Part shown: piece after piece, positions 6,439 through 56,279 of the stretch
Position numbering within the stretch: position 1 is the stretch's first letter
Layout: each line of letters opens with the position of its first letter
Assembly: GCA_034620365.1 (NCBI GenBank)
Contig: JAQGEQ010000380.1
Location: 2,604,001 to 2,668,000 of the forward strand
From: Pegea sp. RAD2-039
Taxonomy: Eukaryota; Chordata; Thaliacea; Salpida; Salpidae
Direction of reading: 5' to 3'
Length of the DNA stretch: 64,000 bases
Notes under the pieces: generated by a model
What the model was told of the DNA's origin: nothing
The model's input: the letters and a program-made list of their open reading frames with translations, nothing else
The model's database searches: none
Made by a program: the position numbers and the translations under genes

Positions 6439-6461
6439 TAATATTAAAACCTCAAAACAAG

Positions 6462-22100: not shown

Positions 22101-22980
22101 TTTTGAAAATTGTTCTTCATAAGAATCTGGCTAAAACTTTTTCTTTCTTAAAATTACTTGATAGTTTCTAGAACAGCAAAACTTTAAATTTTTGTCAGTT
22201 TTTTAAATAGTTTCAGTGATTTTGTACACTAATTTTAGGTCCTACTAGGGACACATTTATTACAAAAACTAGTGAGCGACAATAGAAAAAATCATCAAAA
22301 TGATGAGATAACAAATTAACAAAGGAAAGAGTAATCAAGAAACTTCTGCATTAAACAAATTGGAAAATTCGTGAATATAGCAATGAAATGATCAGAAAAC
22401 TGATAACAAAGTGGCAATAATTAATTTGAAAAACAAAGTGGGAACATATAAAAGAACATACCAAAAAGCTCACATATAAAAGCCTAGTTACAGTGCTTCA
22501 AGAAATTGATGAAAATGTTTTTAAGATTCGACGTGAATTGCTTCTTTCGGAGTCGAATTCCAACGTAAATAGTGATCAAGATAGAATGATTGAGGAGAAC
22601 CAACAAGATCTGCAGGTCGCATTTCATGATAAAGATTAAGAATCCGTTGAAGAGTAATCACAAAGTTAGGAGCCTGCTTAAGAAGAGAGTTTATATTCAG
22701 TTTGATAAAGATATCTTACAAACACAGATTAAATCTTACTGTTTTGTTAAGTTATTCTAAATTCAAATAAAAAATCTTATAGATACTTTCGAGATTAATA
22801 TTAACGATTTAGTTTTTGATGAGTTTAATAAACCCAAGGTTTGAAACTTAATAATCAATGTCAATATTTATTCACTTAATAGAGAATGTTTTAACAAAAA
22901 TCAAGGTTTCGTTATCAGTACTTCGGTGGTAAGACTAATAAAAGATAAATATTTAGCTTATGAACGGAATACAGAAGAAT
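19170..22980. other. region between CCP2 and gene G2, coding-like scraps
   Basis: No complete gene is seen, but several scraps look translated. On the minus strand, 19842-19744 is a phase-0 open exon of 32 codons plus stop behind a good TTTTTAG acceptor; it is a weak candidate for the missing last exon of G2. Minus-strand pieces at about 20640-20990 include an open piece ending in YREYHSVPKFGF and a stop. On the plus strand, 19990-20060 encodes a short acidic piece with a stop, and about 22490-22640 reads QEIDENVFKIRRELLLSES followed by more acidic sequence. The stops and lack of joinable splice sites suggest decayed or fragmentary genes. Confidence 0.3.
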
Positions 22981-22986
22981 ATTTAC

Positions 22987-25045
22987 TTTAGAGCCACAAG
23001 CCTTCATTTTTCTAGTCTTTCCACCACTTGACGAAGCTTTACATTCGTCATCTGCAAATTAATTCGAAATCATTAATAATTTCGTTCTTTGAAACTGATG
23101 TTAGATGCTTATAAAAGGTAATAAATGTCAAGTTATTTATTCAAAGATATAACGATCTAATTGGAATTTTGCAATAAATTGATAGATAAATTTAGAATAA
23201 TAAATTAATGCCACGTTTCAATTGATCAATAAAATACTTGTGTTAGTTCATGTAGCACAAAGGCTCTTTATTTGAAACGTTTCAATTGATAAATGTTAAA
23301 TTTAGTTCTTTGTTTGCTTGTAAGTTACTCTTTCTGCTGACTCAATGACTAAAGTCGTTGAAAACAAAATTAGAAGAAGTAATTGTTGAAACGTTAAGAG
23401 TACCAATTGCTGTATAAACATTGGTTTCAAAAGAAACTTTCAACGGTTCAAGCATAACTACTTACATCAGTAATTATATACAGACTGATACCCAAAACTA
23501 CTCAAACAAACGCTGCTGACATTTCAGCTTCTATTACATTACAACCTAATAACTTATTTTTATTTTGTTTACAATTTATTTATTTTTTAATATTCAGTAA
23601 AATTGAAATCGATGTTCAAACAATCGTATATGTGAAGTATTAAAATACTTGAAAATGAAAATAGATTTACTTGGCAAAGCGATAACATTTTTAATTGATT
23701 ATTAAAATATATCTTAAATACCAATTAACCCCAATGCACTTTAATTACATTGTTATTGACATCATTAATCTATTTGTTGTTATTTTTAGTTGCTATTCAG
23801 ATGCATTCAAGACTAGCTTACAAATGAGATCTTTTTAGACATGGGGGGCTTTGTAGAGCTTCTAGTAAAACTGATGTCAAACGGTTGTTCTCTTTATTTA
23901 CCATTTTAAAAGTTGATTTTATAATTCTTAAAATTACTCATAATTATGAAAAAGTTCAACAAATATTTTAATAAACTGTTGTTTGTAACTTTCAATAGAA
24001 AACAAGCAAAAAATATCTTTAAAGTTCAATAACTGCAATTTTAGGTAAACTTATCAAGTTTTTGCTAAAGTTAATCATATTAAATTTAAGATTTAACTTA
24101 CCACCATCTTTTTCATCTAGTGAAGAATCAGATAAGTATGATTGAACATTTGAAGTTGAATCTAGTACCACTGAAGTCAAAAAGATACTTTTAGAATACT
24201 TGAAAAAACCTTTACCAATTTATAAGCAGTTCTTTTATTTACCAAAATTAAAAGTCATAATTCAAAGTTACAATATAAACTGTTTATAAAATATTTCATA
24301 TATTGTTTTCTTTTTTAAACAAAGATAGCTATATTAAAAGTATAACTTTATTTTAGGTAAAGTTAAAAAACTTACAGTCTTCGTCCAATTGGAAAATTTC
24401 AGTCCATCCAGACTCAATTTGCTTTTCAGGACTTATTGAGCAGTTAAGGTAATTTGAACTTAAATCTTTTTCACTATTTGAACCTAGAACAGTAATAAAA
24501 TGATTTAAAAAAAAAGTAAAACAAATAAATTTTTAAAAGTATAAGTTGAGTAATATGAAAAATAGTCAAATAAGTTAATAACAAAAATACTTTATCATTT
24601 TGTCTTTGAGCAAGTATAAATTATTGTTATGACTAATATAATATCTTGGAATGTTATAATAAATAAAATAATGAAATCAAGTAGTTTAGAAGTTTTAGCA
24701 ATTAAAGTAGATGCAAAAATGTGTACAATAACTAATTTTATAGCTTTTTAAATCATGACAAAAAGCTATTTTAATAAACTTTTGACTTAGGTATAGATAC
24801 ATAATGATACCAAATAACAAAGAGTTTAAGAAAAGGTTAGATGTTCAATCAAGAATGAATCTATATTTAAAGATATATCTATTTTTTATTCTATAGTAAA
24901 AACTCAAAAAATTTATAAAATCATAAAAACCTAGAGCAGCTGATATATTTTCATCAAGTTTATGCGCAATTATCTTAAAGTTATCAGAACTAGCTTCCAT
25001 GTCTGTTAAACCAGCATTTGCAGAGAGTTTTGCTTGATTATCCAT
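22987..25045 (-). CDS. gene G2: unknown acidic Ser-rich protein (3' end unresolved)
   Basis: I do not recognise the product. Exons read downward: 25045-24931, 24483-24376, 24170-24102 and 23051-22987. Introns are in phases 1, 1, 1, and the donor at 22986 is phase 0. These encode about 119 residues, starting MDNQAKLSANAGLTDMEA. The chain is rich in Ser, Asp, Glu and Lys, has no transmembrane segment or signal peptide and looks disordered. The last listed exon ends with a basic stretch (GGKTRKMKACGSK). A splice acceptor ending at 25089 precedes the ATG by 43 nt. At least one further exon should follow; an exon at 19842-19744 fits the phase but is only a guess. The exon-phase pattern equals that of G1 and G3, so I group them as putative paralogues. 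It is probably an intracellular regulatory protein, by composition only. Confidence 0.5.
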
Positions 25046-25099
25046 TATAGTTCAACAAACTTTTTTGTTCCTAAAGAACATTTAACTACTGAAAAACAA

Positions 25100-26084
25100 A
25101 ATAAGCATCACATACATATATCTGTATATTTAAAATTCAAAATTAGTTTTTCAATTAATATATATTACATAATACTATGATAAAAATAGTTTAATAAAAA
25201 AAATTAATAACAATTTATAATAGTTTTGTTAGTTTTAAACATAAGTAAATATGTTAGTAATGTTTAATATTTATTAGATAGATATGAAAATTAGTTTATC
25301 AAAAGTTCTTATAAAATTTGTTAAACTAAACTACACTTCCATCATCTTTCAATAGCAGGTTATATTCTATGAATAACATTTTTTGTATAATTTTCAAAAG
25401 CACATAAAATTTATTTAGAAAATTAAGCATTAGTTATTAATTACTTAAATAGTAACTATAATCATACAAAAAAATTGATTAAGAGAATATAAATTATCTA
25501 ATAGAACAATTTAGGGAACAAATTCAGTTTAAACCAAGAATTTATCTAAATGATAGTTTATCATCAATAAACAATACTTGAAATAACTTTGTGCACGATG
25601 CAAGAAAATATATTTATAAATAAAATTATAAGTATTTATAGCTAAATTTCAGTAGAATAAGCATTTTATGTAACTACAGTTTGCACATTTGTAAAAAAAT
25701 ATTTATGCTTAAATAGTTTGACAAATGATTTAGACTAAAAAAAAACAAAAAAAATTATTATCACTTAGCATAAAAACAAATTATTACATAACTTGTCCAA
25801 TAAGAAAGCATACCAGCAAAATAAGAAATTCAAAATAATGACGACATAAAAACAGGCTGATAGTCACTGAAGCAGAAAAAAGTTGCTTTTGACAAAACTG
25901 TTGTTTGCTGCTTGTTTCCAACTTTTGAATATTTTCATGTCCTACTATTTTATGTACATTTCATAAATACAAAAACATTTTATACAGATAAAAATATTGT
26001 TAAGCATATTTTTACTATTTAAACGCTTTTTCTTTAAATATAGTGTCGTAGCTTCTATATACTGTTGTAATAAATAATTAAAAT
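25100..26084. other. upstream flank of G2, nothing recognised
   Basis: AT-rich sequence upstream of the minus-strand gene G2. It should contain its promoter or a leader exon. No repeat or open frame is convincing. Confidence 0.35.
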
Positions 26085-26478
26085 GAGTTGAACTACAACA
26101 AAATTTCACAGAAACCATAGGTGCATGATTTTTTTGGCCCACTTCCAGGGCACAAGATATGAATATCCAGCTGTTGCCCATGTAGCAGGATTCCACTCTC
26201 CAAGCCAGCCAGGTTATGCAGAGGAACAGACAGACTGATGTAGCTGCGCCCAGCTGGAGTAACGTGAGCTCCCAGAACTACACTGAGTACATTGACGTAT
26301 GCGTTTAAATTCGGAGTTTTACTAAGAGTGTTGTCATTTTACTAGACTCACAGGGCCTTTTTATCCGGGTTTTTATATGGACTTTTCCTTGTTACTAATA
26401 TGTGTCCACCTGGGATCGAACCAAGAATCCCCTGCTTGATTGGCAAGTAAGGTAACCGCTTTGCCAGAAAGATGGGAA
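26085..26478 (-). repeat. tRNA-derived SINE, nearly full length
   Basis: On the minus strand the head reads TGGCAAAGCGG (A box, 26467-26457) and GGTTCGATCCC (B box, 26422-26412), spaced as in a tRNA gene and close to the RNA polymerase III consensus. A non-tRNA body of about 300 bp follows. It includes the GCTACATCAGTC, GAGTGGAATCCTGC and CAGCTGG blocks and ends in a GGCCAAAAAAATCATGC segment. The body recurs in plus orientation at 4160-4325. Its GC content is clearly above its surroundings. It encodes no protein and would depend on a partner LINE for movement. Confidence 0.75.
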
Positions 26479-26479
26479 A

Positions 26480-27148
26480 ATGTGCGCATACTATGCAATC
26501 ACTAATCACAAATGCGGCTGTGCTTACATTGGTATTTCACATAACGTCGTAAAAGATACAAACTCAACTCTTAAAATTGTTTGTATTTTAATAAAAACTT
26601 TCAACTTTGTTAAAACTTTATATAAATATCGTTTGGTTTTATAGAAGTGTACTGCTTAATCTATTTATCTTTATATGTATAAATCAACAATAATACAGAC
26701 GGTTGTTTAGTAATTTCAACTTATACTAAATATTATAAAAATGTTTTATTTGACTTTGTAGTATAAATACTTTTAAATTTGATGTTTTTAGCAAATGGTT
26801 TGTTTTCGAAAACAGATAATTAAAAGACTTCAAGTACTTGCCGGACGTACAATTTGTGCGGAAGTTAAAGTTTTCCTATGTTGCAAAAAATGATTTTCCT
26901 GAGTGGATAAAAACGTATTTGTTCATATTTCAAACTGTATCTGAGAGGTTGTTGTGTTAAAAATAAGACAAAACTCAAATTCAACAGTTTAAGCATATTT
27001 TATTCCAAATTTCATAAAATATTATTTAAAAAGTCGACCAAATAAATAAGTATGAATTTTATTTCTTATGTATAAATCAGCATATATTTAGGAAATGTTT
27101 ATTAAACTTATATTATTTTTCATAATTAAAAGTTTATCTATTTACTTA
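26480..27148. other. intergenic, nothing recognised
   Basis: AT-rich spacer between the SINE and a LINE 3' tail. No feature is seen. Confidence 0.35.
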
Positions 27149-27209
27149 TCACAATGAACGCGAAGGAGGGTGCCTGAAGAGGGCACCTCTCGCTATCACA
27201 AATTCTCAC
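27149..27209 (-). mobile_element. 3' tail of a CR1-like LINE (5'-truncated copy)
   Basis: The reverse complement matches the last 60 bases of the LINE at 37.8-38.7 kb: GTGAGAATTTGTGATAGCGAGAGG, a hairpin (GGTGCC, loop, GGCACC), CCTCCTTCGCGTTCATTGTGA. Only the 3' UTR end is present, as expected for extreme 5' truncation during target-primed reverse transcription. The hairpin stem is perfect here. Confidence 0.7.
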
Positions 27210-30200
27210 AATTTCATACTTGTAAATCGATGTCGTAAAACTTTCTATTAAACTTTTTTTCCAGTAGATATACTTTAAGTAGTAATAATTATCTTAAATG
27301 AATCTTTACTAACAACATAACATATAAAAATTCCTTTAAGGTATCTTTAAAACTATTGGTGTATACCTTCAGGTTTGAACGTCATTATACAGAACATTTA
27401 TTAGTTTCTACAATTATAAAACGTTTTTTACAGTTGTGTTTTCTTACAAATTAAAGAGTATTTGATTTATGAATACATCTTATACATTCTAAATGTGTAC
27501 AAGGTAGAGTTTTGAATGCATCTTCTATTTCTTAATGTACATTTTAGTTTATTTTTTTACCGATCATTTAAAAGACTTATTCAAAATATCTTTACTACTA
27601 TCTAAACTTAATTCATCTAATGCTCATCACATGTTTTAGGCTGATGATTTTTTTTTGTTATTTATAGATTTAATAAAAATTTAATTAAACGTTTAACTTT
27701 TATTTCAAGACATTTTGAAAAACAAAGTGCCAATGCATTAGTATTACAGAGACTAGGTAATATTTTTGTTGCAGCCTTATGAAAAGCTTTATTTATGAAA
27801 ATTGGTATGCAGCCAGCATAAAATAAACTTTAGAATAAATAATGCTACTGTAGACAGGATGTTTTCTGCATAATACTTGGTAAAAGCAAAACATAATAAT
27901 TTGTATAATCAAATCTTAAAAACATGTCGTGACAATCGTATGATTATCACGTGATTCATAATTCTAAAAACGTTATACGCAGTATTGCCAATTAGATATT
28001 TTAACAGCTTGATAAAAACTTTTTTATTTTTAAATTTTCTATAAAATGCACATACACAAAACTAATTAAAATTTTTTGATATTATGAGCCAATAACAATT
28101 TTTTTTAGTCCAGTTTTTTTTAATTTTGGTTTTTAAAAGTTTCAAAAATATAACTGTGCAAAAAGTTTTCTAATCCTATAAATTAAAACAGATTATTTTC
28201 TTTGTTTTTAAATATCCAAGTTGATAAATATTCTTATCAATTGATTCTTGTTAGATTTGTACAACAGCTTTTACAGCAGCCGTTAAAATATGGTTAGGAA
28301 TTTGGTGACTATACGATAAAACTATAAGAAACTTATAGCAACAATTATTTCAATTGTATTTAAAATATTAAAATACTGTTGTAATAATTTATGACTAATT
28401 AAAGAAATACTTGCAATTTATTTTAGTATGGTTCTAAAAATAATCATATGTAACAAAGTAAACTATATTAACGTTAAAGTTTTCAGCTTGTAATTTTTTA
28501 ATGATAATAAACTTGTATTATTATCGAAAGTAATTTAGCAAAATTTTACTAAGTTTTTAACTAATTTTTTGTGGTTCATTTTATGATTGGTTAAAGTAAA
28601 TAAAAATTAAAATGTTATAGCTCATTATTGAATATATAATAGTTATTTAAAAGTTTATTGCGATTAAATCAAACTTAAATAAGAATAAATACACTTGAAG
28701 ATAATTAATTTAAAATCGCTGTTATTAAAAGTAACTGAAAATTTATAGAAGCCAAAAGGTACACAAATATCTTTAAGGGGTAATTGCTTACACACCTACT
28801 GATCATCCTACAAATCTAACCAATAAGAAGTCAGTTAGTCATCACATGATAACCTCTTCCGGTCTCTTCAAAACTATGCTATAATCTATCTAGCAAAAGC
28901 AGTTTTGTACATGATCACGTGACAGTAATATTATTCCAGAAATAATTTTATTTGCTGACCAATAAAAATTTTCAAAACTACATTTTTTATCAAACATTTA
29001 ACTTGTAATATTTCATTGAAATTACTAAATTTGAAAATTAGTTTCCATGAAGCTTTCTATTCAAATCCTCCCGTATTTATAACACATTATTTCTTATTCA
29101 AACATTTGTAGCCTATCAAAAATCTTGTTTCTTTTGAATGTCATTGAACAAGTTTTTAGTTATTACTTCATCTTAAAAAATAAGCAGGAAAAAAGGATAA
29201 GATAAATTTTTTTGGTTTTGAAATATTCAATAAAAACAAGTTTTTCATGTGTTGAATATCAATCAAAAGATTATCATATCTCAGCATTTAATTTTCTTCT
29301 ATGTAGATCTGATGATTGCTTGTATATTTTACTGTTGAAAAGATAATTTTACAAACACGTTTTACTTACGTTAGGTAACGGAAATCACTTTTAATTAATG
29401 AATGAAATATTTAATTTACTTTTCAGTTTATTGCTACATGTTATTGTTAAATGGTTATATCAGTATCTTTTAAAAGAAAAAAATAATTTTTTACTTCAAA
29501 GTTATCTCTAGACCAAATATGATATTATAATACCCCAAGCTTTAGATTTAAACAAATCAATTTTGTATTTGTAAATGTTTCAAACTAATATATAAACATA
29601 TAAACATAAGTCAAATGTTTGCAAACAATAAAACCATTTCAATGATGAATTTAAGATCAATTTCTTACTGAAATATCAGCTCATAAACTAACCGTTCAAA
29701 GTCGGTTACAAATGCTCAGAGTTAAAAGTAAAATAAATATCAAAAAAGTTTAACTGATTCTGCAACAAAAAAGGTAGAAATTATGAGTTGAGCAAATCTT
29801 ACTAAAATCAAATCATCTCGTCACGCTTGACTAATCACCTATAACTTCCTTTGTAATAAAATTATCCTAAAATTCAGCTGTGGCTTAAAGTTAATTTGTT
29901 TTTCTAAAAAATTTGAAATTACTTAGTAGATTAAGTACTGATAAGATTATAATGAGCCCAAAAATTTGTTCAATTCCAAGATTGTTGCTTGAATCAAGGA
30001 TTTTAATCGTAGATAATTTATTCTTAATAATAACTTTTCCTAATTAACTTTATATAAATATTTTAGATAATTCAAAAAAGTTTTTCAACCTAGAAGTTTG
30101 CAAAACACTTAGAAATCTCAACAAGAAAGTTTGTTTTTATGAAAACAAGTAGAATGGAGCACAGTTAAGCTCAAACAGCTGGACAAAAATGATGACAGAA

Positions 30201-30460
30201 AAGTAAAATTTCTTCACAACTGTATTGCTCACGACTATATCATTAAAGTTACTGATTTCCTTTTAAGTTGTTTTTTATGAATTGGTAGATTTGAGTTAAT
30301 GGATTTCAACACTAAATTTGGCCTCCTCTTATTGTTGGCATCTTATTACAAATTTCATCATTGTTTTTAAATCTTTAAAAATATTTAAATTTCTTTAAAA
30401 ACTGTTTTTGATTTCAACTTTTCTTGTTTTTTATAATCACCAAAAAATAATTTGAAATTT
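27210..30460. other. intergenic, nothing recognised
   Basis: About 3.2 kb of AT-rich DNA downstream of gene G1. I see no coding region, RNA gene or repeat that I can support. Fairly frequent CACGTGA-like words occur near 27950 and 28915, but they are isolated. Confidence 0.4.
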
Positions 30461-30462
30461 TT

Positions 30463-30468
30463 TTTATT
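30463..30468 (-). terminator. polyadenylation signal of gene G1
   Basis: The minus strand reads AATAAA about 63 nt past the G1 stop codon. Confidence 0.45.
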
Positions 30469-30530
30469 AAACTAAAAACTTAACAAAGCTCAAACAGAAA
30501 ACAGAAAACTAAATGGTCAGGAACACACGT

Positions 30531-31624
30531 TTATATTTTAGAGACTGGAGATAAAGAAAAGTCTTTCTCCCAAAAAGGATTCTGGAGAAAAGAGGCAGTA
30601 AAGGTCCGGTCTTCCACCTCTAATCGAGCTTGTGCAGATAACTTCTTCATCATATTGTAGATATGATCAGGCTTCGGTTTCTGTGACACAAAATTAATTT
30701 ATTCTTTAATTGAATCTTGTAAAACATCAAAACACAAATTGAATGTTTCTCACCACTTCAAATTGAGGTGCGTTGGATAAAGCAGCAAATGAAGCTTCTG
30801 AAGTCGGAGTTGAAGACACTATCCGATCTTTTTTAAGTTTACCACTTCCTAAAAACAAAAACACTTGTTGACAGTTAACCAAATAGCAACTGTGGTGAAG
30901 CTAACACTGCAATTAAGACTCATGTACGTCAATGAAAACGCTTTTGTTGAAGGAACTGAAGTGACAAACACTTGAAGTCGGCAAAAACAAAAAACATGTA
31001 AAGTTGCATCATTCAAAAGTAAGGAGAAAGTAATTTGAGCAAATAGAAAACTGACCAGGTATTGGAATAGAACGCGAATGAAAAGAGAAGTCAGAGAAAC
31101 ACGAGATGACTGTTTCGTCGTATTCATCCGATGAAAGAGCATCATCATCATCAGCTGGTAGATAAATATATGTCATCTCACCATATTTGGTGATAAATTG
31201 CAAAACTTACAATCATTCCCTTTATCAGAATGTTCTTGATGAGGATAAAGATCTAAAAATACATATTTTAGTCAGAATATAATGAAAATCAGTGCAAGGA
31301 GAATCATACCCTCCTCAGTAAACTCAAACTGTAGATCATCTTCTAGTTCTTCAGTCTTATTATTGGCATGGAATGTAGTTGGGTATGCAAAACCTATGGG
31401 CAAAACATCTAAAGTTACAAAAAAAGTTAGTTCATGAATTATAATTATATTTTAAACAAACCTAAACACGGCGAGGTTGGTGATTCAAATCCTGAATCAA
31501 TTACATCACAAGTTTTGAGTGATATAGTTAAAGATTTGAAATCACTTTCCCAGCTGACATCACAACTGGGAAATGAAAAGCCACTTTTTCCTGTAGCTTG
31601 CATGATAGCTTTATTTGTTGACAT
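30531..31624 (-). CDS. gene G1: unknown acidic Ser-rich protein, 215 aa
   Basis: I do not recognise the product. Exons read downward: 31624-31462, 31408-31310, 31252-31211, 31154-31056, 30848-30754 and 30680-30531. They join in phases 1, 1, 1, 1, 0 to give 215 residues; introns 1-3 are only 53-57 bp. The protein has no signal peptide or membrane segment. The middle is acidic and Ser/Asp-rich (SDDDDALSSDEYDE), and after it comes a basic KLKKDR patch. Residues 43-48 are DSGFES, a canonical DSGxxS phosphodegron of the type read by beta-TrCP, followed by SP and TP sites. The last exon starts KPKPDHIYNMMKKLSAQ, which aligns with the G3 last exon (VPPHDQMFLWMQELTRRTY). This suggests a phosphorylation-controlled intracellular regulator, by inference only. 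Antisense open frames here are shadows. Confidence 0.62.
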
Positions 31625-31629
31625 AATGG

Positions 31630-34559
31630 TTTATGAAATTTCTCCATCTTAATAAATTTTACAGGTCCCGGTCTTTCAGAGCTAAAATTAGCAACACATC
31701 TTTGCGATATATTTTCACAAAATTAAAACTAAGCCTGAAAGACAAATTTAGATTAGCTTATTTAGAAAACAAAAAAAAACTTTTTGATTTTCATAACAAT
31801 TTCAAATTACAAATAACTGAAAGCAGTTTTCAGAAAATTTAAAAAATTTAAATTATAAACTAATTACTCTAAATATAGTGGGCAAAAATTTTCATAAAAT
31901 TTCAATTCAAAAAATAAAAAGTTAAAAAAAAAAATTAAAGGTTTGTATTAAAACAAAAATATTTATAAATAATGTATATACATATTATAAGTTTAGCTTA
32001 AAAAAAGTTTCTTAAAAAAAGTTTCTTAAAAAAATTTTTACAAATCAGTCAGTATAAAATAGAAAGTAGATATCTAAAATTTTTTTTTAATCATAATATT
32101 TTAGGATATATTCAATATAACTCAAAAATTAAAAGAGTTTTCAAGATAATATTTTTTAGAACCTAAGTTATAATGTAATTCTTAAGCCTTTATAAGAACA
32201 AAAATCTAAAATTGGAACATTTAAAAAAATATTAAAAATAAACTATAAATATAAACAGTAATAGGTACTACTGAAGTAAGAGTGCGAACAAATATATTAA
32301 TCAAAAAATATAAAAAAAATACATTCTTAAAGTCTTGAGTAAATCAAGTAACTTTTTTTGAACTTAAAAAAAAAGAACAAAAAAGTGATGTTAGAGAATA
32401 ACTAATAGTAAGGCAGCTTAAAATTGTAAAAAAATACAATATTTAGACCATACATTAAGTTTACCGAATAGATAACAAGAGCACCCAAACATCAACTAGA
32501 CGACACAATAGACAAAGAAAACTAAAAGGCGGGCGGGACCAAGCAGGCCAAAATTTGGAGCGACTTTTGTAGAGCTTGACGAGAAAGAAAAAATATATAA
32601 AATAAAAGTTAAACTATTTGCTATCTCTTTTAAATAGAGTTTCTTGCGAAATACCCTCTCGTTTTTTAGATTTAAGAAAAAAGAAAGCAATTGCAGCTTA
32701 AAGCTTTTTTCTGATTTTTGTTTTCTTTTCAAATTTTCTATTGCCTTGTGAATAAAAAAAAATTGACTACATTTTGAAAATATAGAAGCTATATAAAAAA
32801 AGCTTTATTCATTAATAGTTATAAGTTGAAATATTTGTAACAATTTCTTAATTTAAGTTTTATAGAAACAATCAAAAATAGGAACTAAAATGTTTTTTGT
32901 CTAATCAGTATGGATTTCTCTTACACATTTAAACTATTATCTAAAAAGATGCCTACTCTTTAAAATTTTTAATATAACTTGCGTATTTAATGAGTTATCT
33001 AAATTAATTTTGAAATAGCTTCAAAAAGGAGCGGGTGAAATTGGTTTTATTCAAATTACAAGTAAAATTCATTCAGTCGATGGTTTTTAAATTTCATAAA
33101 AATTATACTCGTTACAAATAAAGTAGTTGGTGTGCATAATTGAATGTAATTTAAGCACCATATATTATCATGCTTAAGGTTTGTCGATAAAACAACTTTT
33201 TTGCTTCGTTTTATTGGCTAAAAAGTTTTCACGGCTTGACTTCTAAATTGATTTTTGGTAAAATCTACGCTGGAGATTTATAACAACAAACCAGAAGAGT
33301 ATACATCAAACATTTCTTATTTTACAATAATCTAATAATAAAGATAATTTATAAGAGTATTTATGGGTAATGAATTTAACATTGAAATTTAATAAGTGAA
33401 TGGAATTTCCTCTTTAGTCTATTTTGAGTTGAATTTTTTGTAGATATAATTTGAGGCGATTAAAACTAGTTTTAATATAAATATACTTGTTTGTGCTGAG
33501 CTTCGTTGAAATTATTTTCCTATTTTTTTACAGTTTGATTGAAATTGATGAAGTATCAAGTTTAAAAACTTAAGAATGAAACAATTCATTCATTTATCTT
33601 TCTTTACGCAAACTTTCGAGAGCATACAGAATGATTGAATTAAAAATCACATTAGAAAGTCAAAATTGTTTTATACATTTTTTAAATACAGTCTTAATTA
33701 TTCTCAACCACACCCTGGAATGCAAGCTTTCTGAATGGAAAATTTTTATGAATAAAGTACTGTTAAAAGTTGCTTAAAAACAAATTTGATAATTTTTAAC
33801 ATACAAATTTATTTGTCAGTATAAAATCAAAAATAATAATTGTTTAATAAAATACTATTTATATGTTATCAACGTAAAAATTATTTTAGTCTCTTAAAAA
33901 GCAAACAGTTTTAATGAGATGTGTCAATTTATCTCATTTACTCGTAAACACTTCTCAGTCAACAACACCGAGCCATAAGATAATTGTATAACAAACAACT
34001 CCTGTGATTGGAAATGTCTAAGAAAACAACAGTTGCATGCAGATAAGCAAGCACTTTAAAGATAGCTTGATTGTCTCTGATAAAATATGAAAACAAAGTT
34101 TACATTAATGACTTAGCTTATAGATAAAGTCTTTATTTCTAAAAATGAATAAAATAAACATAATGATTTCCTTTTTAATCAGCAGTTTATAGTTGTATAA
34201 TTGCTGTTAGATGAGTAAGCTTTTGATTTGACTAACCAAATAGCTTTATTGATGAAGTTTCAAAACTTTCAGCTAAGTTATCTTATTCAATGAAATCTAA
34301 GGAACTTTTATATTTATCTTGGAAAAAATTACATCTTTTGAAAACTGAATAACAATGAAACTTTAGTATTTATCACACAGTCTACCGTTTTAGATTACAT
34401 TGTCAAACCAAAAGTATTTTGAATCTATCAAAACACAAAAGTAAGTACAAGAGAACTTGTCATAAGCTTCGATGACCTTAGTATGTAAAATTTAGAATAT
34501 TTGTATCTAAAAACTTTTTTTATCAAATTTTAATTAGTCAATGCAATTCATTCTCCGAA
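31630..34559. other. intergenic upstream of G1
   Basis: Very AT-rich sequence with long A and T runs, especially at 31.85-32.4 kb. It would hold the G1 promoter. The minus-strand open frame at 32.5-32.7 kb has biased low-complexity content and no splice context. Nothing else is recognised. Confidence 0.35.
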
Positions 34560-34589
34560 ATTTGCATTATCTAAATTTTTTTAGCCAGT

Positions 34590-34694
34590 ATTATTTAATT
34601 CATCTTTTCGACTGTTTTTGTCAATATCCTTCGAAATATTAGACCTCCATTTGTACTACTTTAAACGTTGATAGTTCACCTCCAGACTCAAAAG
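34590..34694 (+). other. possible non-coding first exon with strong donor
   Basis: The sequence CCTCCAGACTCAAAAG is followed by GTAAGT (donor at 34695) and then a pyrimidine-rich tract. It has the look of an exon end, and the preceding bases are less AT-rich than the surroundings. It could be a 5'UTR exon for the plus-strand gene G3, whose ATG exon is preceded by an acceptor, but that would need an 8 kb intron. The upstream limit is a guess. Confidence 0.2.
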
Positions 34695-34699
34695 GTAAG

Positions 34700-36140
34700 T
34701 TTCTTGTCTCTCTCTCTTTTATAGTTGTTTGAAGTTCCCTTTAAAGTCAAAATACTATTTTTCCTAAAAAAAAACTTATAATTAGCTTTTCATACTTTAA
34801 ATCGCTTCTCATTGGTCTCTCTATAAAATAGGATTTACTGTATCATCATTATTCCATTTCTTAACTCTTTTCTAGAATGTATGCCTGGGTCAATTATAGC
34901 TTTTGATATAAACAGTCTTTGTACAAAAACCTTTTATAAGATTGTATCTTGCATTTATACGATTTTAGGGTTGATTTAATTATGTTTGAAAACATTAAAT
35001 TGATGATAAGTTTTATATCGCAAAAATTTTAATTATAGACCAACAATGATTAGATACAAATAAGAGTTTCATCAATTTACAAAATCTTGTTTTTATGTTT
35101 CTATTTTATACTTAAGATTAAGATTATATTCTGGCCTAAGACTTACAAGTACAATTTTTCAAGCATGTACTTTCGCTTTAAATTTATCTGCATTTTGTAA
35201 AAAACTTTTCAAAAAATCAATTTTTTGATGAGAAATTAAAGGATTATTAACAAAAGTAGCAATTATTAGTAGGTTTACAAAAATGAATTTGATTTACAAA
35301 AGTATTTAGCGGTTTGTACGATTTGATTTGTCATAACTGTGAATATAGCTAGAAAGTTAGTTTTAAATAGAATTAGTTGACTATTTACTTAGAAAAAACT
35401 GAAGGGAAGTACACATTTCAACTTTGAGTTTACGTAAACTCACCCTAATATTTAATGAACTCTCGTTTAAACCATAAAATAACAAAGGCTCACTTGTTCA
35501 TCAAATCTAAACTGCTAACTGAAAATAGTCACGTAAATAAAATTAACTTTATTTTAGCACTAAATGAAATTCATACCTTACTACAATCTTATCTTTGACT
35601 CTGTAAGACTCAACTTATATTTTTTTATGGTTTACTTAAACATTATAAACTTTTTGAAGCATTCGTAAACAAGAAACATTTTAAACCAAAAACTATTTTT
35701 TCAATCGATAATTTTTTTAAAGCTAGCAAGTGCTTTGTGGGACACCACTTTTTTCAATACCCACAAACTTCAACCACAGGTTCTAATGGTTGTATAAGTC
35801 GAGTGTTTTCATAATCAAGTTTTGTTTTTGTGTTTTTTTACATTTGTGTAACAAATTAATCTTTTTAGTAGTTTTAGGCTGATATTACAGTTTAGATTAG
35901 CTGGCTCATATAATTTTCACGTAGTCTTGTGTGTACAGTTTTATGCAGTCTTTTAAGAAGTTTGTTGGTACGTGACAAAAGCAAAAAATTCTTTTTAAAA
36001 TTTAAAACTTATTCGCTATTGATGATAGAAACTTGAAGTTTTAATTTATAGCAACCATTCAAAATATACTTAGTTTAATTATTAAATTTGTTTTTTAAAT
36101 CGCAAATAAGTGTGATTGGCTTTTTAATTTATTTATTTGT
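34700..36140. other. intergenic, nothing recognised
   Basis: AT-rich spacer with no open frame or repeat that I can support. Confidence 0.35.
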
Positions 36141-36190
36141 TACAATAAACGCAAAGGAGGGTGCCTCTCGCTAAAACACATTCTAACAAA
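36141..36190 (-). mobile_element. 3' tail of a CR1-like LINE, hairpin arm deleted
   Basis: The reverse complement reads GTTTTAGCGAGAGG, CACCCTCCTTTGCG, then TTTATTGTAAC. It matches the ends of the elements at 27.2 and 38.7 kb but lacks about 12 bases that form one arm and the loop of their hairpin. This is a severely 5'-truncated copy. Confidence 0.65.
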
Positions 36191-37809
36191 TAATATTAGG
36201 TATAAATAATAAAAAATATAGAATTTCTGATTGTTATTTAAACATTAACTTAATTTTATTGATTTCTTACAAAATTTTGCTGACATAATCAGATGAAAAA
36301 AGTTTTCAATTCAACCTTTTAAAAGTGAAGAAAGAAAAAATGAATTTTTAAATAACTCAGTGAAAGTGAAATTTTGTCACTAAATCTATTTTGAAAGTTA
36401 TTTTGCAAAATACATTAACATATATTCACAAAATTTTCCATTTGTAGTTGTAAATTTCCATTCACCTTATTTCGAACCATTTACAGTTCTGTTCAGTTTG
36501 CAAAATGCAGCAAGCAGCCAAGCATGTACAAAAGTTCGTCACCTAAAGCTAAACAGATTGAGCCACTGAAAAAAGCGAAACCTATTATTGGTCATTATAA
36601 ATCACGTGACTAACCAAGACATCGCCACGTTTAAACAAAAGATAATATAAAGACTTCCAAATCTTGAAAGCTTTTTTTGTTGCTCTTTTATTTTTAGATA
36701 CTTAATTACATATTACAGTAGATTGATTCCAATTTTCTACTTTATAACCCTTCTTACTTTAGTAAAAAATTATTAAAACAGATTTATAGCAGTTTTTTAC
36801 CTACATACTAACCTTGAGGTATATATTAGTATAAAAAATATTAAAGTTGATTAATTTAGTATAATCAAATGTTCAGTTTGTTACAATGTCTATTGAAAAA
36901 CGTCTGGTAAAAGATCCAGCAATTGTTTATTAGAAAACTTTATTCGATTTGACATTTAGTAAATTGAAAAAGTCTCTTGGCAACAAAATATCATTACTTA
37001 ATTATAAAAAAATTTTAGTCAAACATAAAAACGAATTTTACAAATTATATAAAACGTTTATGTAAGCTTAAACTATTCTAAAATAATTTACCTTTAATTC
37101 TTTACATTATTAATTAAAGTAAATTTTTTACATTAGCTTATTTCCTGCAGATACTACTTCTATAAGACTGATTTGTTTTGCTATTTAAATTACTGCTATT
37201 TTGAAAAACACTTTTACAGGCTGTTAAGTAGAACAAAAAACGATAGACATTGTTTGTGTAGTAACATTGTAATTTCAGTGTTTAATGCTTAACAGATTAA
37301 TTCTAATGATTTTTTTCTTCTAATAGCTTTGCAGGTGCTGACATTTGTTAGCATTGTGATAAGGATTTATTTGGTTTATTCTGGTAGCAGCTGGTTAAGG
37401 AGCTTTCTTTTCATAGCTTGTCATTTTTTCTCATAGGGAAACGTAGCAATGATTTTTTCAACATGTGCTTAGTGCGTCTTAAGTATTGATTAGTTTCAGA
37501 TAGTCACCTTAAAGCATGGTTATTTACTTACAGAAGATTCTAACTTGTTTAAGATTTTTTTCGGATTTTGGGTTAAGCTACTTATAACAAGGTTTTAACT
37601 CTTTAGTTACTCTTGATTAATTTTGGTGTATTCAAACGTATTTTCTTTATCATTTTAGAATTTAAATCAGATATTATTAGAAAATGCAGTAAAAAAAACA
37701 CTTCTAAAGTTTTATAAAATTTAGAATTAGATCTAAAAGATGTATAAATGAGAAAAATTGGTCTGAAATGGTTTCAATCTAAATAGCACCTCGTAAGATT
37801 TTATTTCTT
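36191..37809. other. intergenic, nothing recognised
   Basis: AT-rich sequence between two LINE pieces. No coding signal is seen. Confidence 0.35.
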
Positions 37810-38690
37810 CTTATTACCTTTTTTAATGATGTTTTAATACAAAAAGTTATTATTCAACGAGTATCTTCGGTCCTAGACCTTGGTATTACTCTATCATCTG
37901 ACTTTAAATGGCGCAATTATGTTTCCAAAATCTTTGGAAAATCAATCAACCTTGTCTTCCTTATTATAAAGACCTTTAATTCTAAGGATCCATGCTTTTA
38001 TATCAATATTTTCAAATTGTACGTACGTACAGTTCTTGAATACAATGTCAGTGCATGGATGCCATATCAAGTCAGTGATATAAAAAAATCGAATCTGTTC
38101 AGGCCACATTTATGAGATTAGTATGCAGAAAACTTAATATTAAATATGATAGTTATAAACATCATCTCAGTTTCTTCAATTTAGATACTTTGAAAATTCG
38201 ACAGATTAAATACGACTTAATTCTTACTTTTAAAATTATCCACAATTTAATTGACATTCAGTTTGATGATTTTTTTACCATTATTCCTTCCTTCAAGTTA
38301 TATCAGCTCAGACGACACACATTACATCTTAATAAGCCTATATCACCTAGTACATTGGTCAGAGCAAATTTTTTCTCATACCGCACAATTAGTACATGGA
38401 ACCAGCTGCCATCAGACATTGCCATGTCGAAATCGTTCGCGTTGTTTAAGCAGAAGTTGAACCGTTATAGTATTGCCAACATTGTCATTTATAAACTGTG
38501 ATTTTTTTCTCTTTTTTATATTATTAACATTCCATGTAATTGTTCACTGTTATATACTTTAAGGACTATTGAAATGCCATGTGTTACATCTTTTACTTTC
38601 TATATTTTTGACTAAATAGATGTTATTTGTGAGAATGGGTGTTAGCAAGAGGTGCTCTTTTCAGGTACCCTCCTTCGCATTTATTGTAAT
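37810..38690 (+). mobile_element. 5'-truncated CR1-like LINE with RT C-terminus
   Basis: A non-LTR retrotransposon 3' end. From about 37830 one frame reads VSSVLDLGITLSSDFKW and later RTVLEYNVSAWMPY, the thumb region of a CR1/jockey-group reverse transcriptase. The frame is lost at about 38085 in a run of A residues and continues one base out as an open frame from 38112 to 38501, with LVCRKLN, FSYRTISTWNQLP and a stop after VIYKL. The catalytic palm of the RT and the endonuclease are missing, so the copy is dead. A 3'UTR of about 190 bp follows, ending in a hairpin (GGTGCTCTTTTCAGGTACC) and CCTCCTTCGCATTTATTGTAATAAA. The same tail occurs at 27.2 and 36.2 kb. Confidence 0.85.
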
Positions 38691-41269
38691 AAAAAAAATA
38701 TTTGAGTGGGTTTCTGTAGTTGCTTTGTTTATAAACAATCAAATCATCACAGAAACCTTTCTGGTTTTTCTCGGAAAAGTTTCACTCAAAATAGAAAATA
38801 AACATTTTAGAAAAGTTTAAGTATATATAAACTAAGTTTGTTTTAAAAAATGGTAAAAAATTCATTTGAAATTAAACACTGAGTAAAATACTTCTATAGA
38901 ATCTTTATAAAATTGATGATAAATTGAGGTAATCAACGTTTTTATGCTATACAGCAAAAACATATCCAATGATTAACGAGTAAACTTACAAAGGTCCAAG
39001 CAATTTTTGCTATTATTTTTCTTACTGCTTGGTGACAAGCAAAAACATAAACTAGAGTCGTAATGCAATAAAGTTTATAAAATAAATAACAAACAGGTGA
39101 ACACTAAAATATAAAGTTATTGACAAAAACACAGCTAGTGATCAAGAAAAACTTTGAAATACTCATAGAGTAGTTAATTATTCACCAAAATCTTAGTGAA
39201 TTGGTAAGTTTTACCTATGATACCGAGACTTAAAATAAATTGCAAGTTAGCTTCAAAGCATCTTATAATATAACTTTGGAATCCTGTTAAAAACGTAATA
39301 AATAAAATAGTTTTTTAGCACATATAAAGATGTGTGTTGGTTAATAACGCAGGCAGAAAGTTTATTAAGTCCTTTTTTACTTTATCCTAACTTAGTGAGT
39401 TTACAAATCTAAATCCTAAATATATTTTCTAAAATAAATTCTAAATAAATATAATTTCTAATAAAAAACTTATACATCTAAATTGATCAAAACAAAAGAT
39501 TTAATCTCGTAAATAAGAGGATTAAATGTGATTCTCAGTTATTCCTGAGACTACACAGTTTTAAAAGTTTATGAACTTTTAGAAGTTTTTGCTCAATTTG
39601 TGTGAAAAAGAAATTAAAAATAGTAAGCATAAACAAAATCAAGATATACGATGAGAAATGTTTTCATTATTGAAACTTTCCAAGTAACATAGAATACTAA
39701 TAGGTAAATGTCAACTTTAAAGCGTTTAATTTGGTCTGCCTCTTTTTCAGAAACTCAATAAAGGTTCTAAGTTCTTAAATGTTACCTCAGCAAGACAACC
39801 ACAGGATAATTTACACAACTTAAGAAAAGTTTATTGTTGAGTCAGTTTACATAACACTTCAATAGTTTATAAACAGTTGCTTATTTTAAGTTCTAAGAAT
39901 CCTCAAAGTTTGATTTATAGAATTTAAAAACTTATTTGAATGAGTCTTTATTTGTTCAAACTATTTGCTTCAAGCAAACCGATTGATTCGTTTAGAAATT
40001 AATCTTGTGGTGTTTGCATACTTTGTTAATAGTAAAATATGTTTTATCATTTTACAAAACGTTTTAGCGTTGCTTAGTTTTACTCAAAAGTAGTTATTTT
40101 TTTATTTACAGAAAAGTTAGACTGTAAAATACAAAAATAAGAAGAATATAAACTATTGTGGTCTTAGTTTTTAATTCTATTTGATACACACAAATATTTG
40201 CTTACTTATTTTGAGCAACATGAACAATATTATTATAAATATTTAAGGACTTTAATCTTTAATGCATAAGACTTATTGTTATCATTGGTTTTATCAAATG
40301 AGTTTTTTCAATGACTAATATTTATGCGGGTAAATGTAGCACTGCTTTCTTTGTATAGATGGTTAAAATAATTAAAAACTAATTTTATGTTTTACTGAAC
40401 CTTACAATAAAATGTTGTATTCAGAACTTAATTAGTTTTATTTATTGCATTAAATTTCTAGAACAAAAATATTTATAAACATATAGGTATGAAAAGCTTT
40501 AAAATGACAACAAATAAAAACGGTTGAAAGTTTTTTTTTTTAATTTAATAAAACTTTATTCTGAAACTTTTACAGTTTTTTACACTTTTTTTACATTTCT
40601 GATGCAACTTTCAAGCAACTTAAAAGTTTCAATGCTAGCCAAAATCTTTAGAATCTGTAACTTTCAAAAAAATGTTTTACTAAAAGTAAAAATTATTGAG
40701 TGAATATTTTTTTGGTTTTGGAAGTAAACAAAAACTTTTATATGAGTACTTGAAAAAAAACTGTGATAGGTGGGAGTAAATACTTTTTAGAAGGATCAGT
40801 TTGAGTCTACAAAACCTTTAAAAACTATTTGCTTCATTAATAAAAGTCTAAAATTCACTTTAAAAGAAGATGTATAGTTTTAAAGTTTCCTGTTTTATTT
40901 TACAATGAGCAGCTTCAAGTTTTTCAATTCACAAAGTGTACTTTCTGACATTTATTTAAGTGCTGAGAGTAAATTCAAATGCTATTTTAAAAATCAATAA
41001 AAAGAAACTTTTAGAAAACAACTCTTTTTTTTATAATTTTAATAAAAGCTATAATTTTACTCTATATAAAGTTTTTTAGGTGCCATTAGTATTTTAAATC
41101 TGGTAAAGAAGAAATTTATAAAATGCAATCAGACATTTTTAAATAAACTTCCCTACTTTAGTTTGTGGCTATCATAGAACTAAAGATTTTTTTTTTCATT
41201 TTATTGAATAATTTTTAATCACAAGAAGAATTTTGTGCGTAAAACAACAAAATTAATTATCTATTTTCA
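38691..41269. other. intergenic, nothing recognised
   Basis: AT-rich sequence downstream of the LINE with many A/T runs. No gene or repeat could be supported. Confidence 0.4.
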
Positions 41270-41650
41270 TGCGTGCAACGTGGCAAAAAAAACTTGCTGC
41301 AATTTAACTGCTACCAGCTTTCCACTCTTCTTTCCCTTTAACTATTTAATAGCTAGCCTCTAACAGAAATTGCTCTCACAAAAGAGCAAATTAGGAAAAC
41401 TGACTGATAATAGAGAAACAAGTTTATGTTCTCTTTGCTCCTAGCTATAGCCTACTCGTTACGCTTCAGAATTTACCGACAGCGTTCAGTTATACTTAAA
41501 CTATCACTGCATCGTCTGATATAAGCCTCGCACACAAAGCTCATAAAGTAGAAGTAGTGAAGTTGAAGAGACTCACATGTGAGTTTTAGGCTCTTTGTGC
41601 TCTAGTTTGTCACGCTATTGCAGAGTTTTTGTTTTGTTTTTACAGTAAAT
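41270..41650. other. GC-richer island upstream of G3
   Basis: This block is noticeably less AT-rich than its flanks. It contains a perfect 12-bp palindrome, CTCACATGTGAG, at about 41573-41584, and copies of an ACAAAGCTC / CTCTTTGTGCTC pair that could pair across it. No open frame spans it. It lies about 1.1 kb before the G3 start codon and could be its promoter region or a decayed repeat. I cannot tell which. Confidence 0.25.
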
Positions 41651-41816
41651 GACGCTAGTTTTTAATAACACCTAAGAAAAAAATTTAAAAACCATCTCAA
41701 ATATATTTGTTTGTCTGTTTTTTTTATTTGTTAAAAATTTGATTTTATAATAAGTTTATGGTATTTTATATATCGTATTATATTTTAAACTATATATTTT
41801 ATCATTTTATTTTTAG

Positions 41817-41829
41817 TATATTGTTCTCG
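41817..41829 (+). other. candidate 13-nt micro-exon
   Basis: A long T-rich tract ending TTTTTAG is followed 13 bases later by a near-perfect donor, GTAAGTATG. The enclosed sequence is TATATTGTTCTCG. This arrangement fits a tiny leader exon of G3, whose coding exon starts after another acceptor at 42697. No transcript evidence is available. Confidence 0.25.
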
Positions 41830-42708
41830 GTAAGTATGTTGGTGGTTATTTTTTTAGGCAATGTAAAACATATAATTTATGAAAGATAAATTTTAATTTT
41901 TACAAAACATGTTATTAAAAATAAATAAGTTATCAAAAACAAATATTTGATACAAATTATAGAATTGGCACAATATTATATAAGTAAATAATAAAATGAT
42001 TGATTTAAACTTATATTTAATTTGTTTTGCAAGAAAATAAATCTTTTTTATATGCAGGTCAATAGACTTTATTTTTCAGTTTAAATATCTGAAAGAATAG
42101 TGATTTTTTCCGTTTTTAAAATGTATTAAGCAATCTAAACAAAAGTCATCTATCTCATAAACTGAAGCCATTTATGAAATGAATATTTGTTTCATAATCA
42201 GTTACAATAGTTTCTTTCTGCTGTATATAGCAAAAATAAAAGATGATAATTGTCTTTCTACTGAGTTAAAATGAATATTTGACAAAATCTAAGCGACAGC
42301 AAATATAATTGTAAACAAAAAACCTCTTTAAGCTAACCAAATAGTTTACTGTTTATCAAAAACTTATAAGCTCATTAATAATGATTTAGAATGAGTTTGT
42401 TTTTTGATTTGATTTTTCGCCTTTTAGTATTATGATGATATATAAGGTTTTGTAAAACTCGCTAAAGCTTTGAGGCACTAATTATTAAGATTACTAATAA
42501 ATTTTTACTAAAAGTTGAAACTTTTTTTATGTCAATTTTTTTTTATGTCAAACATGATTTGTTAAAAATATCATTTTTGATACAAACATAAGTTAATTAT
42601 TTTTTAATGCTCTAGCAGCTGTTTTATTAAACTCAATTAGTTTGTATTTTACAAATATTTTTGTCGATTTTAGGGCTAGATTAATTATTAATTTTAGAAA
42701 AAAACAAA

Positions 42709-45235
42709 ATGCCCCTAAATAATGATAGTAGATATTTAAAAAATGGAACTTTAGTGTTAAATGATCACTGCTATGTGTGTAGTAACTTACAAATTGATGA
42801 TTGCTCATCAAATATCAACAAATCAGCATTAGGCCGACCAATTTCCCTCTCTTGCCAACCAATCAACGATTCGAATTCATTTTGTGAGTTTTAAATTTGT
42901 TTTTGCTTTATACCTGTTTATGTAGGTGCTTATTTATTAATTTGTTTGTTTGATAATAAGAATATCAGGTTAAAGTTCTAGTATGTGTGACCATAATGTT
43001 GCTATCTTAAATATTTTTCTGTGCATTAGTTATTTATTTGCTTCGATATAATTGAATAAAATAGCTTAGTTTATCTTCACTTCTTATTTTAAATATTATT
43101 GATAAAATTTTCAGCAAAAAGCGATGAATCAGAAGGAAGCAGTTCTCATGGCTCTTGTACCCTTGATAAAAATGATTTTTACAGTGTTAATAAAGATTTT
43201 GAATTTGATGAATGCTGTGAGTTGTGTTTAATTTGTTTATAAAATATTAAATACTGTAAAAGATGCTTTTCTCGATTTTCAAAACTTTCAGAATATTTTA
43301 AACATTATTTTTCTTTAATGTAAATTTGTGTGGTTCATAATAAAGAGCTAATATTTCTAAATTACTAATATATCTTATCTATAATTTTGAAAACTTCTAA
43401 AAGCTAAATCGAAAGCAGATTTATTTTAATCCAACAATACAGTTTACTTCATCAGGCTTACTTTTTAATAGTGTCTATTCTCATCACCTCAACGTTTCTT
43501 ACACAATATATTTTTTTATCAATTCAAAAGTAGAACTTTATAGAGGAAGTATTTTCTTTGTTACAGCTCTTTATGATCTATTGAATGATTCTGAAGACGA
43601 TAAAGAATCTCAAAATGAAAACTGTGAAGGTTATTATTTATTTATTAACTAGTTGTTTGATTAGACGCTAATAACCCCAGAAATTTTGTAACGTTACTCA
43701 TCACTTGATTTTAAATTTTCAGATTCACTACTTTGTGATCAAATTTCTAGATCTAGATTTTCTACAAACAAGTTTCCAAATCAAGCTACATCATTGCCAG
43801 TCAACATAGTTAATGTTCTTGGTATGTCAGTTATCAAATTGCTTAAATTTTTTTAAAACTTGAAAACTAAAATATCATTTTGACTTTTTTGATTTGTAAC
43901 TTTTCAAATTTATATATCAAGTTATGATCAGTTAGATTAGTTGTTAAGTGTATTCAGAAAAATCTTTTATAACTTTCCTTTAATGATTAAAATTTTTTAT
44001 AATTCTTTTTATTTTGCATAAATCTTCAGTAAATCTTAAATTTTGAAACCATTTTTTAATTTGTAAACTTTATGATAGTTAGTATAAAACTCTATTCTTG
44101 TTTTAAATTGATCTAGTGTCCAAAACGTTTGTTTTGACCAGCAAATAAAATATAAATCTGTTTAACTTGTTGCAAATCACCCAACAAAAACACTATGACT
44201 AATTTAGTTTAAGTAAATCGAATTGGGAATCAATTCTGAAATATTGCTTTTACTTTTCATTCCTTTTATTTGAAAGCTGCGAAGCACTTTTATATAGTTA
44301 GTTAACTTACTAGTATACAAGTAAAAACATTTTTACAAGCTAAAACTTATCGATTAAAATTTTTGATATTATCTACCACAAAACATCTGTTAAAGCTAAG
44401 GTACGTTACAAAAACATCTGGTTAAATCCCTAATAGAATCGATAACTCGTTTTGGTTTTTATCTGATGATTAATTTCTATTTTAGACCGAACCGTGTCCA
44501 AACAAAAAGATCTAAAAGAAAAAATTGGTATATCAGCTGTGCATGAGGATACCTCTTTAAAATTGTCTTCTTACCATCAATTTTGTGGTAGACCTGACAT
44601 AGAAATTCCTGAAAATGTAGGTCAACTTTAGTTTGATTCTCTTTATTCAATGTTTTTTACATACTACTACTTTAAGGATTTTTAGATATTCTACTGGTAT
44701 GTCATATACTAAATATTCAAATGAACTTTAACTTTTCCAAGTTTTTGAAGATTTCTTCTTACTTTAAAACTTTTAAAGTATTTTTCTTTTAAGTCTTTAA
44801 ACTAGTTATAATAACCTTAATAAGTTTATATTAAGTATCGATTTTATGACTTTATTATTAATTGTCTTCCTCTTAAGTTTTAGCGAATGATATATTTTCT
44901 GTTTAGTTTTTATTGATTCAAGAATTTTATTTCATGTAACTATCTCTAAAATATTTGAGTAAATGTAAATATTTTAGCTTAACAACTAATTTAATTGCCA
45001 AATTTCTATTTTCAAATTTGCTATTTTGTTCGATTTTAATTCTAATTAAGTTCAACGTCAAGCTTTCAATTGTATTTTCTAGGTTCCTCCACACGATCAA
45101 ATGTTTCTGTGGATGCAAGAGCTTACACGTAGAACGTATCAAGGATCTGAAATGATCTTTGGTGATCTTCCATCGCCAAGATTGAAGAATAAATCTTATA
45201 AACGCCGACTCGAACCTCAACCTTCCGCTTATTGA
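42709..45235 (+). CDS. gene G3: unknown acidic Ser-rich protein, 240 aa
   Basis: I do not recognise the product. Exons 42709-42883, 43115-43216, 43567-43629, 43723-43821, 44486-44616 and 45083-45235 join with phases 1, 1, 1, 1, 0 and consensus splice sites to give 240 residues. An acceptor ends 11 nt before the ATG and the context is CAAAATG. The N-terminal exon is cysteine-containing (HCYVCSNLQIDDCSS); exons 2 and 3 are acidic and serine-rich (SDESEGSSSHGS, NDSEDDKESQNENCE). The C-terminal exon has VPPHDQMFLWMQELTRRTY and a basic end with SPRLKNKSYKRRL. There is no signal peptide or membrane segment. It shares intron number, phases and the form of the last exon with G1 (and the visible part of G2), which I take as evidence of common ancestry despite low sequence similarity. 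AATAAA follows at about 45546. Confidence 0.62.
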
Positions 45236-45239
45236 TGCC

Positions 45240-56260: not shown

Positions 56261-56279
56261 CAAGAAAGCAGAATTTATT

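Follow-up and report, generated by a model that had tools for sequence, protein, structure and literature searches.

The window analysed here is a stretch of 64,000 nucleotides from the salp Pegea sp. RAD2-039 (NCBI GenBank assembly GCA_034620365.1, 105.7 Mb in 387 contigs; contig JAQGEQ010000380.1, forward strand, C6:2604001-2668000). It contains three neighbouring genes, G1 (31624-30531, minus strand), G2 (minus strand) and G3 (42709-45235, plus strand), which encode short acidic, serine-rich proteins. Along with additional copies on other contigs they probably represent an expansion of PRAS40 (AKT1S1), an inhibitor of TOR complex 1 (TORC1), with members that keep different docking modules.

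G1 comprises six coding exons of 163, 99, 42, 99, 95 and 150 nucleotides, separated by GT-AG introns of phases 1,1,1,1,0, and its frame is open to the stop codon. G3 follows the same plan with exons of 175, 102, 63, 99, 131 and 153 nucleotides, GT-AG introns and an intact frame. G2 has five coding exons (115, 108, 69, 65 and 156 nucleotides; phases 1,1,1,0) and no counterpart of exon 4 (Table 1). The sequence-only reading had proposed the six-exon plan for G1 and G3 and phases 1,1,1 and then 0 for the visible part of G2. Gene models and full-length relatives bore out the plan, with the end of G3 exon 1 corrected to 42883, the phases of G2 were upheld, and the last exon of G2 that it had sought was located. 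The longer form of the NAGNAG acceptor of that exon adds one Gln, which is also present in a relative of G2, P0005. In intron 3 of G2, positions 23853-23880 (minus strand) look by eye like another exon 3 start in decayed form.

Table 1 Coding exons of G1, G2 and G3 and the duplicated block, with positions in the window
Feature	Position	Strand	Evidence or counterpart
G1 exon 1 (phase 1 out); contains DSGFES	31462..31624	-	P0004 full-length match
G1 exon 2; TOS-like FEFTE, starting six residues ahead of exon end	31310..31408	-	
G1 exon 3	31211..31252	-	
G1 exon 4; SIPI strand-like segment	31056..31154	-	
G1 exon 5 (phase 0 out)	30754..30848	-	
G1 exon 6; amphipathic PDHIYNMMKKLSAQ, without FGDLP box	30531..30680	-	
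G2 exon 1	24931..25045	-	
G2 exon 2; TOS-like FQLDE (FLFDE in P0005), starting six residues ahead of exon end	24376..24483	-	
G2 exon 3	24102..24170	-	
G2 exon 4, counterpart of exon 5 in other members (phase 1 in, 0 out)	22987..23051	-	
G2 last exon; NAGNAG acceptor, start 22676 or 22673	22521..22676	-	P0005 match
G3 exon 1	42709..42883	+	P0001 match
G3 exon 2; TOS-like FEFDE, starting six residues ahead of exon end	43115..43216	+	
G3 exon 3	43567..43629	+	
G3 exon 4; SLPV strand, like PRAS40	43723..43821	+	
G3 exon 5 (phase 0 out)	44486..44616	+	
G3 exon 6; segment HDQMFLWMQELTRRTYQ and FGDLPSPRL box	45083..45235	+	PDB match to PRAS40; helix 194-210 in P0001 model
Block containing G2 and G1	22425..36111		Collinear duplicate on C74, about 312790-323221

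A search of 5.8 billion proteins at E-values up to 10 returned three relatives for G3, one for G1 and one for G2. P0001 matched G3 over its full length (88%) and through the exon junctions. Its longest contig measures 1167 bases and the G3 gene spans 2.5 kb, suggesting that P0001 derives from spliced RNA. The relatives P0004 of G1 (68%; longest contig 1055 bases) and P0005 of G2 (64%) likewise matched over the full length and through the junctions. P0005 backs the new last exon of G2 and also lacks the exon-4 segment. The remaining two proteins are P0002, a G3-type fragment that reads into intron 5, and P0003 (279 amino acids), a remoter relative of G3 with 42% in the alignment. P0001 continues for seven codons beyond the G3 stop, and positions 45233-45253 (plus strand) of the window are similar after the stop, which indicates a stop codon shifted between species.

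Further members and the duplicated block

Queries against the genome were G1, G2, G3 and G5, followed by hand annotation; G4 and G6 did not serve as queries, and additional members may therefore exist. Two gene models with phases 1,1,1,1,0 lie on C78: G4 (C78:583178-585688, plus strand), which uses one GC donor, and G5 (C78:589966-591214, plus strand). A repeat at 38385-38697 of the window (L029:2910-3211) is shared with C78 near G4 and G5 at 88% identity.

The block with G2 and G1 has a collinear duplicate on C74, made up of blastn pieces 70-84% identical and ending about 100 bases beyond the G2 stop. The C74 copy of G1, G6 (C74:315861-316850), is still open and retains six exons with phases 1,1,1,1,0. 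G6 departs from G1 in its start codon and in the acceptor of exon 2, and it was considered as a pseudogene; this was dropped, for the gene is open when read from an ATG further downstream and with the acceptor shifted. The C74 copy of G2 has no exon 1 and was left out of the gene count. G4, G5 and G6 are predictions without transcript support. The last exons measure 150-162 nucleotides in all six genes.

The complete plan (phases 1,1,1,1,0) is present in at least five predicted genes of the family (G1, G3, G4, G5 and G6), to which G2 adds a variant that lacks exon 4. A clustered, fast-diverging family with one phase pattern had been suspected from the window alone, and the wider set agrees with it.

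The comparison of G1 with its duplicate G6 illustrates the pace of change. Identity was 68.0% in exons, 85.0% in introns and 77.8% in the outer flanks, and exon 6 reached just 45.3% next to an intron with 90.4%. Among the exons, protein conservation was highest in exon 2, which carries the TOR signalling (TOS)-like motif, with a proportion of nonsynonymous differences (pN) of 0.075 and of synonymous differences (pS) of 0.346; in exons 3-6 pN was 0.29-0.45. The ratio of nonsynonymous to synonymous substitution rates (Ka/Ks) for exons 1-5 was 0.65 by codon counts. Positive selection, considered in view of exons less identical than introns, was not upheld: synonymous sites also changed faster than introns, and the rate at nonsynonymous sites did not exceed that of the flanks (Fisher p 0.52). 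As synonymous sites, too, were more different than introns, the comparison documents rapid change and not positive selection.

Likeness to human PRAS40

Human PRAS40 contacts its target at three places. According to excerpts of PMC6325617 and PMC7464330, Raptor is the partner of its TOS motif, mLST8 that of a beta-strand, and the FRB domain of mTOR that of the helix 212-232. A PDB search with G3 matched a sole chain at E-values up to 10, the PRAS40 chain of 5wbu (E=0.33), and the match covered the last exon; with G1 and G2 as queries no chain matched. The profile A1 found the same 5wbu chain (E=0.8). The five-sequence profile A4 matched three chains, with PRAS40 first and second (0.093 and 1.1) and CFAP276 third (1.1). 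When this G3-type profile was aligned by hhalign with human PRAS40, the match reached P=2.7e-5. The human sequence used is letter-for-letter identical to 6sb0_T. The version of G4 in A4 and in the shuffle and exon-anchored tests omits one Ser where exons 1 and 2 meet. In Smith-Waterman alignments with PRAS40 residues 100-256, none of 1000 shuffles reached the score of G3, G5 or P0001, while 4 did so for G4 and 9 for P0003. The sequence-only reading could not assign the three proteins to a family; G3 and the additional members G4 and G5 now have a match. Since these match a known animal gene, what is new is the expansion with its loss of modules and not the kind of protein. Other small acidic families, such as securin and SERTA, had come up as candidates and were abandoned when the PRAS40 match emerged.

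The motifs occur in the same order in both proteins: FVMDE at 129, SLPV at 183 and FGDLP at 236 in human PRAS40, and FEFDE at 87, SLPV at 137 and FGDLP at 216 in G3. The ordered chain of TOS motif, strand and box is present in G3, G5, P0003 and human PRAS40, and shuffling G3, G5 and P0003 100,000 times each never produced it. P0001 carries identical motifs in that order. The AlphaFold model of P0001 contains one element, a helix at 194-210 that corresponds to HDQMFLWMQELTRRTYQ in exon 6 of G3 and is positioned like the FRB helix of PRAS40. The predicted local distance difference test score (pLDDT) was about 70 at this helix and 39.9 overall; outside the helix region the model is of low confidence and mostly disordered, as is PRAS40.

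Modules, membership and alternative readings

The docking modules are unevenly distributed. A TOS-like motif occurs in five of the six genes, namely in the three genes of the window, in G5 (FEFDE) and in G6 (FEFTD), with none in G4; the P0004 counterpart of the G1 motif is FEFNE. Its Phe lies at position -6 from the end of exon 2 in 4 of the 5 genes tested (G1, G2, G3 and G5) and also in G6; by chance, a motif at the exon end was obtained in 198/20,000 shuffles of G1 and 29/20,000 of G2. The strand S[LI]P[VI] is found in 4/6 genes (G1, G3, G4 and G5) and is absent in G2; exon 4 ends in SIPIP in G1, AIPIP in P0004 and KPIPVP in G6. The FG[DE]LP box is confined to half of the genes (G3, G4 and G5; absent in G1, G2 and G6). 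A DSGxxS motif of the sequence DSGFES is present in two of the six, G1 and G6, and in P0004; DSG-hydrophobic-x-S arose by chance in 751 of 200,000 shuffles of G1.

Sequence comparisons tie the members together to different degrees. G3, G4 and G5 matched each other with 0/1000 shuffles reaching the score in each case; P0003 matched G3 and G5 equally well and G4 with 7/1000. G1 matched G5 at 0/1000, and it is this match together with the position of the TOS-like motif in exon 2 that ties G1 to the family. G2 is the least certain member, placed by its gene structure and TOS position with no convincing sequence match. The claimed similarity between the last exons of G1 and G3 was not significant (763/2000 shuffles reached the score), and a likeness of last exons was found instead between G1 and G5 (9/2000).

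The ordered motif chain of G3 and the common exon blueprint suggest that the family is a PRAS40 expansion, a reading to which we assign a probability of about 0.8. Several results weigh against it. G1, G2, P0004 and P0005 had no match to human PRAS40 (655, 587, 913 and 559 of 1000 shuffles reached the score). G1 was clear against G5 only, with 15, 18 and 127 of 1000 shuffles reaching the score for G3, G4 and P0003; in exon-anchored tests 44/2000 (G5), 510/2000 (G3) and 1240/2000 (G4) did so, and hhalign of G1 with A4 gave P=0.0088. For G2 the shuffles reaching the score numbered 18 (G3), 51 (G5), 342 (G4), 514 (P0003) and 688 (G1) of 1000 and 581-1717 of 2000 in the exon-anchored tests, and hhalign gave P=0.25 and 0.44. 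The TOS pattern was selected after the genes had been seen. Pfam hmmscan, even at E 10, assigned no family to G1, G2, G3 or P0001, and the sole Pfam listing of P0003 was Senescence_reg, under its cut-off (E 0.0034). The PRAS profile (PF15798) had no match in the genome, a weak negative since control profiles matched nowhere either. The AlphaFold model of P0004 holds no confident element. The C-terminal RxRxx[ST] Akt site is kept in 0/6 genes; G4 and G5 have RRxS in their C-terminal part and G3 has RSRFST at 123.

G1, G2 and G6 could alternatively be TORC1 substrates, that is, effectors instead of inhibitors, with a TOS-like motif outside a full PRAS40 clamp. TOS motifs also recruit S6K and 4E-BP, as stated in a portion of PMC6325617, and the missing box of all three genes and the missing strand of G2 would fit such a role. 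G1 is nevertheless tied by sequence to a PRAS40-like member, and neither G1 nor G2 holds an effector Pfam domain, which leaves this alternative rather unlikely. It is distinctly improbable that only G3, G4 and G5 are PRAS40 relatives, with G1/G6 and G2 as nearby acidic genes of other origin in which phases and TOS-like motif agree by chance or convergence. The lack of a convincing match of G2 to any member and the restriction of clear G1 matches to G5 speak for it; the strength of that G1-G5 match, the TOS-like motif of G1, G2 and G6 with its equal distance from one and the same phase-1 intron, the uniform size of the last exons and the clustering of the genes speak against it.

The sequence-only reading had further pictured a family built from symmetric phase-1 exons that can be gained or skipped with no frameshift. 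One loss of this kind was observed, that of exon 4 in G2 and P0005 with the frame kept. As a general engine of family change, gain and skipping are quite improbable, because the other five gene models retain six exons, G1 and G6 differ by substitutions and indels inside exons, and no alternative transcript was seen. Finally, a new orphan family with independently evolved TOS-like, SLPV and FGDLP motifs would agree with the absent Pfam PRAS match and the E-value of merely 0.33 for G3, and is nonetheless highly improbable in view of the chain missing from all 100,000 shuffles, a similarity aligned across helix and box, and PRAS40 as top PDB match.

Possible functions and known counterparts

By analogy with the human structure, the TOS-like motif of a PRAS40-type family would bind Raptor, the exon-4 strand LST8 and the exon-6 helix the FRB domain of TOR. 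In full members (G3 and G5), simultaneous occupation of the Raptor TOS pocket, the LST8 site and the FRB groove may shut substrates out. The others would be partial competitors, acting at one or two sites, or could serve as substrates: G4 is devoid of a TOS-like motif, G1 and G6 of an FGDLP box, and G2 of both the strand exon and the box. The putative partners are encoded in the genome: Raptor_N has exon matches at one locus, on C10, and a TOR-type FRB domain was found at two loci, C32:1428430-1428780 and C190:25645-25815, the latter covering 58/99 profile positions. Two FRB loci next to one Raptor_N locus possibly reflect two TOR genes, or a haplotig.

As the human-type C-terminal Akt site is not kept, release of these putative brakes cannot go through such a site. 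One tentative scheme, which we consider unlikely in its entirety, is a battery of brakes that vary in their docking modules and in the way they are turned off. G1-type members would have given up both the FGDLP box and the Akt/14-3-3 site for release and would retain a degron of the beta-TrCP type (DSGFES, present in G1, its diverged duplicate G6 and P0004), replacing insulin-controlled release by controlled destruction, and G2 would be a TOS-only decoy whose LST8 strand went missing when a single symmetric exon was deleted. Excerpts of PMC7206145 report that beta-TrCP reads DSGxxS and degrades DEPTOR, another mTORC1 inhibitor. DSGFES of G1, G6 and P0004 fits this pattern as a putative degron; G1 contains no Pfam domain.

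G3, G5 and the relative P0003 share with human PRAS40 the order of TOS motif, SLPV strand, C-terminal helix and FGDLP box. The salp genes differ from it in the lack of a Pfam PRAS match, of the C-terminal Akt site (RPRLNT in human, serving 14-3-3 release) and of a proline-rich N-terminal half, and in their number, five full-blueprint models and G2, some with modules missing. PRAS40 is single-copy in humans and flies; the Drosophila PRAS40 is Lobe, a single gene and an invertebrate member of the family. A study of the Drosophila protein is among the works cited in PMC6325617. For the scallop Argopecten irradians, a marine invertebrate, excerpts of PMC11591371 list PRAS40 among five TORC1 genes and name one PRAS40 gene. 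S6K1 and 4E-BP carry the same type of Raptor-docking motif and, unlike PRAS40, make no LST8 strand contact in the account given by parts of PMC6325617; G1-G3 hold no Pfam domain whatever. No multi-gene PRAS40 family was found in the literature as judged by titles and abstract openings, in part from the top of longer lists and with subscription papers outside the scope.

PRAS40 binds TORC1 as inhibitor and as substrate, and its physiological functions are described as obscure in an excerpt of PMC6325617. Several PRAS40-like genes, each with a different subset of the three structural contacts, would constitute a natural module-deletion set. Such a set would allow one to ask which contact inhibition needs and how the duplication of a brake re-wires growth control. 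Exon phases may also expose a family ahead of sequence similarity.

The window has a G+C content of 25-30% in 4-kb steps. Samples of 1.5 kb from C6 and C32 ranged from 0.22 to 0.48 inside one contig, a strongly heterogeneous composition. Rfam at gathering thresholds and a tRNA scan returned nothing in the window. Neither arthropod cuticle Pfam profiles, whose control profiles also matched nowhere, nor COX1 gave a match. By eye, open reading frames at 37783-38498 are like a reverse transcriptase of the non-long-terminal-repeat type, and others resemble eIF5A (6426-6788), a sigma-type glutathione S-transferase (56262-57176), a carboxypeptidase (14166-17500, minus strand) and a gag-pol element (50231-51668).

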